Origin: Galbibacter kalidii
Lineage (GTDB): Bacteria; Bacteroidota; Bacteroidia; Flavobacteriales; Flavobacteriaceae
DNA length: 64,000 nucleotides
Assembly: GCF_026241135.1 (NCBI RefSeq)
Contig: NZ_JAPFGA010000006.1
Location: 64,369-128,368, forward strand
Direction of reading: 5' to 3'
Shown here: piece by piece, positions 24,254 through 54,343 of the stretch
Position numbering within the stretch: the first letter of the stretch is position 1
Layout: every line of letters starts with the position of its first letter
Translations under genes and position numbers: made by a program
Notes under the pieces: generated by a model
Told to the model about the DNA's origin: nothing
Databases searched by the model: none
What the model saw: the letters and a program-made list of their open reading frames with translations, nothing else

Positions 24254-24282
24254 TTGTTATATGCTAGAAAACCGTACTTTTG
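24254..24282 (+). promoter_or_regulatory. Bacteroidota-type promoter for lacI-family gene
   Basis: TTG (24254-24256) and TACTTTTG (24275-24282), matching -33 TTG / -7 TAnnTTTG. Confidence 0.7.
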
Positions 24283-24297
24283 TAGGAATTTGATATA

Positions 24298-24417
24298 AAA
24301 TCAACTGCCTCGGGAAATCCATGAGGTATTAAAAGGGGCAAACCTTAATTCATTTCGATGCAGACCATCGGGGAAACTTGCCTAACGGCAGTCAGGTAAA
24401 ACCCACTTAGTGGGATT
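24298..24417 (+). ncRNA. Three-hairpin repeated 5' leader element, copy 1
   Basis: CCTCG-GG-aaat-CC-A-TGAGG; CGATGcagacCATCG; CCCACTTAGTGGG; ends 13 nt before ATG 24431; second copy at 54243-54343. Confidence 0.6.
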
Positions 24418-24430
24418 CAACTCAATTTAT

Positions 24431-25453
24431 ATGAAAAAGAAAATGACTATAAAGGAACTCGCACGAGAGTTGGATGTTTCTGTTTCCACGGTTTCAAAAG
24501 CCATGAGAAACAGTCCTGAAATCAGTAAGGATACCATTGAAAAGGTGCAGGCTTTTGCAAAACTGTACAATTACAAGCCGAATAACATAGCACTGAGTCT
24601 TAAAAACAAAAAAACCAAGAATATTGCGGTGATCATTCCCGAGATCGTTCACCATTTTTTCACCTTGATCGTGAGTGGGATAGAACACAAATCCAATGAA
24701 CTGGGCTATAATGTTATTGTGTGCTTATCCAATGAGTCTTTTGCTAAGGAAGTGATCAATATGGAGACCATGGCCAACGGAAGTATAGACGGCTTCCTGC
24801 TGTCGTTATCCAAGGAGACCCTTTTGAAGAAAGACTTTCAGCATTTAAGGGAAGTCATCAATCAAGGAATGCCTTTGGTGATGTTCGACCGCGTTTCCGA
24901 AGAAATTTATTGTGACAAAGTGGTTATTGACGATGCAAGGGCTTCTTACAATGCCATTCAACATCTTATTTATACCGGATGTAGGCGTATAGCATTGATC
25001 ACCACAGCCGATTATGTCTCCGTAGGTAAATTGCGAACCTCCGGATATATCAATGCTTTAACAGATGAAGGGATTGAGGTAGATCCGAATCTTATTGTGA
25101 AAGTCGATGATATCGGGGAACTTGAACAAAAGGTAAAAGAATTGTTCGACACTCAAAGTTTTGACGCAGTTTTTGGCGTAAACGAAATCTATGCCGTTGT
25201 GGCAATGCGGGAAGCTCACAACAGAGGCTATAAAATCCCGATGGAAATGAGTTTTATAGGTTTTAGTGATGGAATTTTATCCAAATACGCCTATCCATCA
25301 CTAACGACTGTAGTGCAACACGGTTATGAAATAGGTGAAAAAGCGGCTCAACTGCTTATAGAAAGGTTAGAAAATGAGGAAGAAGATGAGAATTTTAAAA
25401 CAGAAGTCATCAAAACATCTTTATTGGTTCGGGAATCTACAAAACCCGTTTAA
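24431..25453 (+). CDS. LacI-family transcriptional regulator
   Basis: MTIKELARELDVSVSTVSKAMRNSPEISKDTIEKVQAFAKLYNYKPN HTH plus periplasmic-binding-like domain. Confidence 0.96.
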   Translation: MKKKMTIKELARELDVSVSTVSKAMRNSPEISKDTIEKVQAFAKLYNYKPNNIALSLKNKKTKNIAVIIPEIVHHFFTLIVSGIEHKSNELGYNVIVCLSNESFAKEVINMETMANGSIDGFLLSLSKETLLKKDFQHLREVINQGMPLVMFDRVSEEIYCDKVVIDDARASYNAIQHLIYTGCRRIALITTADYVSVGKLRTSGYINALTDEGIEVDPNLIVKVDDIGELEQKVKELFDTQSFDAVFGVNEIYAVVAMREAHNRGYKIPMEMSFIGFSDGILSKYAYPSLTTVVQHGYEIGEKAAQLLIERLENEEEDENFKTEVIKTSLLVRESTKPV

Positions 25454-54229: not shown

Positions 54230-54242
54230 GTATTTGTTTTTT

Positions 54243-54343
54243 AATCCCACTAAGTGGGTTTAATTCCTCGATGCTCTTCATCGAAATGAGTTAAGGTTTT
54301 GTTCCTTTTAATACCTCGTGGGTTTACCCCGAGGTAGTTGATT
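54243..54343 (-). ncRNA. Three-hairpin repeated 5' leader element, copy 2
   Basis: Minus strand CCTCGGGGTAAACCCACGAGG; CGATGaagagCATCG; CCCACTTAGTGGG; ends 13 nt before ATG 54229. Confidence 0.6.

Follow-up and report, generated by a model that had tools for sequence, protein, structure and literature searches.

PATEs (palindrome-associated transposable elements) of Haloquadratum walsbyi have no terminal inverted repeats, no target duplication and no transposase, carry palindromes near their termini and are related at their ends to IS605-type elements (PMC3119063), and one PATE-like sequence is described from Halanaerobium (PMC7290912). Here we describe a hairpin-bearing repeat that is present twice in the 64,000-nt stretch of DNA analysed (the window), which belongs to contig C70 in a draft genome of 4.66 Mb (own genome, G000). 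Like the PATEs of both reports (PMC3119063, PMC7290912), the element holds no gene, has IS200/IS605-related palindromes near its termini and shows no target duplication; its copies far outnumber intact transposases, and small palindromic repeats have been inserted into its palindromes. It differs from them in phylum and sequence, in its length of ~104 nt, in having an extra outer hairpin and in a strong strand bias in one genome. We consider it very likely that the element is itself a PATE, a non-coding derivative of the IS200 family with the left- and right-end hairpins of a Y1 (HUH) TnpA insertion sequence (IS), inserted in existing leaders. In the literature covered, which is incomplete, we found no earlier description of the element in Flavobacteriaceae, PATEs being known from other phyla, and we file it as a new family of an already known kind. 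A repeat easily mistaken for a riboswitch is thereby given a concrete identity, end points and a parent transposon. ERIC-, BOX- and RU-type repeats (PMC2229807, PMC2759123) are also ~100-nt intergenic mobile repeats with hairpins; the difference is that a parent IS family is identified here.

Two copies in the window and a dispersed family

Copy 1 lies ahead of lacI, the repressor gene of a sugar operon, and copy 2 ahead of arsS, a gene name taken over from a first-pass annotation of the window (Table 1). That annotation had reported two copies in common orientation, their hairpins, a canonical promoter upstream of copy 1, and an extra insert in copy 1 with a stem of its own. All of these are present, the promoter and the insert being read directly in the sequence and the named hairpins all being contained in predicted folds (z = -2.1 for copy 1, z = -5.9 for copy 2). 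The TTGCCTAACGGCAGTCAGG module that forms the insert is common to other ‘long’ copies in the genome, and when aligned the two window copies have 81% mean column identity. Other details needed adjustment. The distance to the ATG is equal in both copies, as had been noted, but it is 16 nt if the count starts at the final G of the outer hairpin, the earlier value of 13 nt having been counted from inside the adjoining ATTNAA. Copy 1 had been placed roughly correctly, with revised ends as in Table 1 and with ATTCAA now assigned to the flanking target; for copy 2 the end at 54343 stands, whereas the other end moves from 54243 to 54246.

Table 1. Positions of the two copies of the element and of neighbouring features in the window
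Feature	Position	Strand	Remarks
Flavobacterial-type promoter, TTG (24254-24256)-N18-TACTTTTG (24275-24282)	24254..24282	+	Outside and upstream of the element; sequence read directly
Probable PATE copy 1, long form, within lacI 5' leader	24299..24414	+	IS-like strand is minus; ends from tandem junctions in sister genome
Hairpin H1	24306..24328	+	Equivalent to reverse complement of IS200 right-end hairpin; fold and end alignment
Hairpin H3 (TCGATG/CATCGG)	24355..24371	+	Equivalent to reverse complement of IS200 left-end hairpin; fold and end alignment
Extra palindromic module TTGCCTAACGGCAGTCAGG of long form	24378..24396	+	Read in sequence
Outer hairpin H4 CCCACTTAGTGGG	24402..24414	+	Not in autonomous ISs compared
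Putative target ATTCAA (IS-like strand: TTGAAT)	24415..24420	+	Inferred from family boundaries
LacI-family repressor gene	24431..25453	+	ATG at 24431
Putative target of copy 2, TTTAAT on + strand (the IS-like strand here)	54240..54245	-	
Probable PATE copy 2, short form	54246..54343	-	Between stop codon of upstream gene and arsS ATG (54229, - strand)

Similarity searches with each copy returned ~50 matches in the own genome. We built a covariance model, R1, from 11 intact copies, and at a threshold of E<=1e-3 it matched at least 45 sites in the own genome, far above chance, which upholds the repeat status proposed for the element. At the same threshold there were 66 matches in the sister species G005, a congener, 7 in G006, 4 in G003, 1 in G004 and 10 in G027, a member of another genus, and none in the congeners G001 and G002. 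Only five of 151 Flavobacteriaceae genomes, the own genome among them, had a match at E<=1e-5, a count that is too low for distant relatives since R1 models this subfamily. The family consensus is AATCAACTACCTCGGGGCAAGCCCACGAGGTATTCAAACGAACAAACCTTAACCCATTTCGATGCAGAGCATCGGGGAATTAAACCCACTTAGTGGG, followed by ATTAAA. The element is ~104 nt long and gains length where small palindromes are inserted. The copies analysed span 97-158 nt and are too short to code for a transposase. Mean pairwise identity of the copies is 72% in the own genome vs 83% in G005.

Small palindromes of the GCCTGTCTGCCGACAGAGGCAGGC type lie within the H1 loop of L003, L043, L044, L052 and L056, and others of the CCTTCGGTAAACTCAGCACAGG type within the H3 loop of G005 copies such as L157 and L160; these nested palindromes are paralleled by the SMR-A insertions of Haloquadratum (PMC3119063). 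In G027, a single-contig genome, a related subfamily is represented by several 97-nt copies that are almost identical (L124-L132). No Y1_Tnp match was found in this genome, which we count against the PATE reading and which suggests that the mobiliser of these copies is lost or unknown.

IS200-type ends, target site and empty orthologous sites

A search for Y1 transposases identified intact IS200-type TnpA genes in two congeners, G003 (L116) and G006 (L117), with end hairpins like those of the element in the right order and on the right strand around both genes. Both proteins are IS200/IS605 transposases according to NCBIfam, and that of G003 is identical in sequence to the TnpA of Galbibacter pacificus, which points to Galbibacter as the probable genus. 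Relatives of the L116-type TnpA were found at 80 loci in a scan of GTDB genomes, including Arenibacter, Lutibacter, Maribacter, Polaribacter, Tenacibaculum and one Cyclobacteriaceae MAG, and the closest Bacteroidota IS members have a common left end, TTTAATCAATAGAATTCCCCGAGGCTCTGCCTCGGG, and a common right end, TTTTGATACCCCGACGGCTCTGCCTCGGGGTAGTTCATT. Once reverse-complemented, the element can be aligned to the two IS200 ends in their proper order, and the alignments extend to its terminal base on either side. They score 18.5 and 21, and none of 1000 shuffles did as well (maxima 16.5 and 17.5); the sense strand does not stand out in the same alignment. With the IS200-type ISs of Flavobacteriaceae (Galbibacter, Arenibacter, Lutibacter, Polaribacter and Tenacibaculum loci) the element has in common the left- and right-end hairpins, their order, the TTTAAT flank and the right end GTAGTTSATT, and it differs from them in having no tnpA and in the extra hairpin between target and left-end hairpin. 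The absence of this outer hairpin, H4, from the autonomous ISs compared counts against the PATE reading. So does the search for an intact cognate TnpA, which found none in G005 or in the own genome. The own genome yielded only a decayed relic of the L116 type with a degraded right-end hairpin (L063, C70:225953-226161), on the window's own contig and outside the window, and the presence of this relic speaks for the PATE reading.

The exact ends of the element come from G005, where L158 holds a perfect tandem of two copies, with ...CCCTCAATGAGAG joined directly to AATCAACTACC..., and where this joint recurs at L159, the first copy there being degenerate. These joints define the element as AATC...GGG, without duplication. 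We found no repeated flanks around the copies that would represent target duplication, and the element has no terminal inverted repeats. On the IS-like strand the six bases next to it are mainly TTTAAT, TTAAAT, TTGAAT or ATTAAT (most copies of G000 and G005); TTTAAT is also the flank of the autonomous ISs, and the target, to the 3' side of which the element is inserted, is TTNAAT-like. The right end of the element, TTGATT, is similar to this target, and in ISDra2 the left and right cleavage sites are similar to each other.

Orthologous sites in related species are empty. In six congeners the lacI orthologues (81-84% protein identity) have a short leader without the element and with a TANTTTTG-like -7 box; this leader is ~27-36 nt in the congeners measured, and the leader in the window, minus the element, is ~32-35 nt. 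The arsS site is without the element in the four congeners read, G003-G006. Given these empty sites, the simplest reading is that the lacI and arsS insertions postdate the split from the congeners concerned, and the empty lacI leaders indicate that regulation of lacI across the genus is independent of the element. The possibility of a mobile repeat, which the first-pass annotation had raised, is thus borne out by dispersed copies, IS200-type ends and empty orthologous sites. The more general lesson is that hairpins preceding an ORF should be compared with orthologous sites before an RNA regulator is named.

As to mechanism, we infer that at replication forks a TnpA acting in trans would release the minus strand of the element, the IS-like one, in single-stranded form, and that this strand would be inserted into the lagging-strand template, 3' of TTNAAT. 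The existing lacI 5' leader and the gap before arsS would each have received one insertion, and both may have been tolerated because promoter and start region were left intact. Any effect on the expression of lacI or arsS would be a by-product, and is hypothetical.

Orientation along a contig of a sister species

IS608 and ISDra2 are reported to insert into the lagging-strand template (PMC5371812). We determined GC skew along contig C1 of G005 in 60 windows of 20 kb, adjusted for coding strand, and found that the orientation of the element agrees with the skew in 50 of the 56 copies on this contig (49/56 with third-position skew). Among 365 rotations of >150 kb, none matched this agreement. 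The IS-like strand coincides with the G-rich strand. In G005 the latter has the larger share of coding bases (564,510 vs 402,681 on the other strand) and is therefore probably leading-strand sense, i.e. the lagging-strand template, in agreement with the reports on IS608 and ISDra2. Further checks of the leading strand in G005 drew on tRNA strands (8/11) and one ribosomal-protein operon; 16S genes gave no match in this genome. Orientation in the own genome follows skew weakly (27/45; difference in skew p = 0.048), which counts against the PATE reading. That one genome has so strong a strand bias is independent evidence that single-strand transposition coupled to replication has left its mark in Flavobacteriaceae.

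The skew of G005 C1 changes sign four times along the contig (L314-L373), and the orientation of the element changes along with it. These four sign changes suggest a large inversion or a misjoin.

Position relative to genes and other readings

Among 105 copies, those between co-directional genes were sense in 49 cases and antisense in 21 (p = 0.001); the neighbouring genes were divergent for a further 21 copies and convergent for 14. That the two window copies have equal spacing is coincidental and not a property of the family, since distances vary widely: in sense contexts the downstream ATG lies at -13 to 614 nt. Spacing is not fixed, but there is an excess of sense copies near the ATG, with 25/70 lying 5-25 nt before it (16 expected under uniform placement), and in antisense 0/42 (5.5 expected). 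A similar but weaker bias is seen for ATTAAA sites that are unoccupied in these same intergenic regions (98:72; 32/162 near an ATG). We rejected a pure target-site effect as the source of the orientation bias, as this background accounts for part of it and not for all. The ATG-proximal excess persists over the background (25/70 vs 32/162, Fisher p = 0.013), whereas the orientation excess over it is marginal (49:21 vs 98:72, p = 0.08) and the counts for G005 alone are not significant (17:10, p = 0.25). These p-values are indicative, since a simple home-made caller supplied the gene ends and the background was defined in several ways. The remaining bias may reflect either the purging of insertions that do harm or the retention of those that are useful.

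The residual sense, ATG-proximal excess (49:21) leaves room for exapted leaders. The element would then be a PATE by origin whose sense, ATG-proximal copies, those of lacI and arsS included, are now kept for altered translation or mRNA stability of unrelated genes. We regard this as unlikely. It draws on the excess that persists over ATTAAA sites, on the antisense copies being absent from the 5-25 nt interval, and on the start region being unpaired in the predicted folds, but the same pattern is expected from purging of harmful antisense insertions, and the marginal orientation excess, the counts in G005 alone and the dependence of gene ends on the home-made caller all speak against it. If true, a transposase-free IS200 derivative would have become a dispersed leader module, with sense copies 5-25 nt before start codons selectively kept, and the remaining excess makes this a testable case of leader exaptation.

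It is highly improbable that the element is a REP mobilised by a RAYT (TnpA_REP) transposase, a comparison that the annotation had suggested. Like the element, RAYT-associated REPs and REPINs (PMC2817692, PMC3116915) are palindromes scattered between genes and presumed to be mobilised by Y1 transposases, and RAYT-type genes occur in both G000 and G005. The cognate transposase is of a different class, however, and the ends of the element match IS200-type TnpA insertion sequences and not RAYT gene flanks: against the element the two intact TnpA loci score 16.5-20, vs 6.5-10 for RAYT-type genes (6.5-9) and another IS200-like gene taken together. No convincing copy of the element lies beside RAYT genes, and each oriented unit has two different end hairpins in fixed order, unlike a single REP or REPIN. 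As cognates we rejected the RAYT genes L062 and L118, whose flanks do not match the element, and L061, which carries its own, different REP-like palindromes.

L061 (G000:C37:275999-276343) is an IS200-like Y1 gene with GCTCCGTAGGAGCGTAATATTAA-type palindromes on both sides, apparently a separate REP-like system. The RAYT-like genes L118 (G005), L119 and L122 (G004) and L062 (G000) code for ~150-200 aa; the palindromes on either side of L118 and L119 are unlike the element and are possibly REP families of their own.

Barely tenable, finally, is the regulatory leader RNA that the annotation had offered as one possibility, a riboswitch- or attenuator-type element in cis whose hairpins would control lacI, arsS and further genes: the predicted fold is stable, with two-sided changes in 5/23 pairs, and both window copies are sense with equal ATG spacing, but Rfam, Flavo-1 included, gave no match at gathering or relaxed thresholds (only a tRNA and chance matches), orthologous leaders lack the element, -7 boxes exist without it, and copies occur in every gene context and orientation ahead of unrelated genes. 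Selection on an RNA strand, assessed by counting G-T against A-C mismatches in the stems, was rejected as inconsistent between genomes: G-T exceeds A-C in G000, and the reverse holds in G005 and relatives. The stems thus have no consistent strand-specific wobble bias and give no sign of an RNA strand under selection, and the hairpins are accounted for by the IS200 ends.
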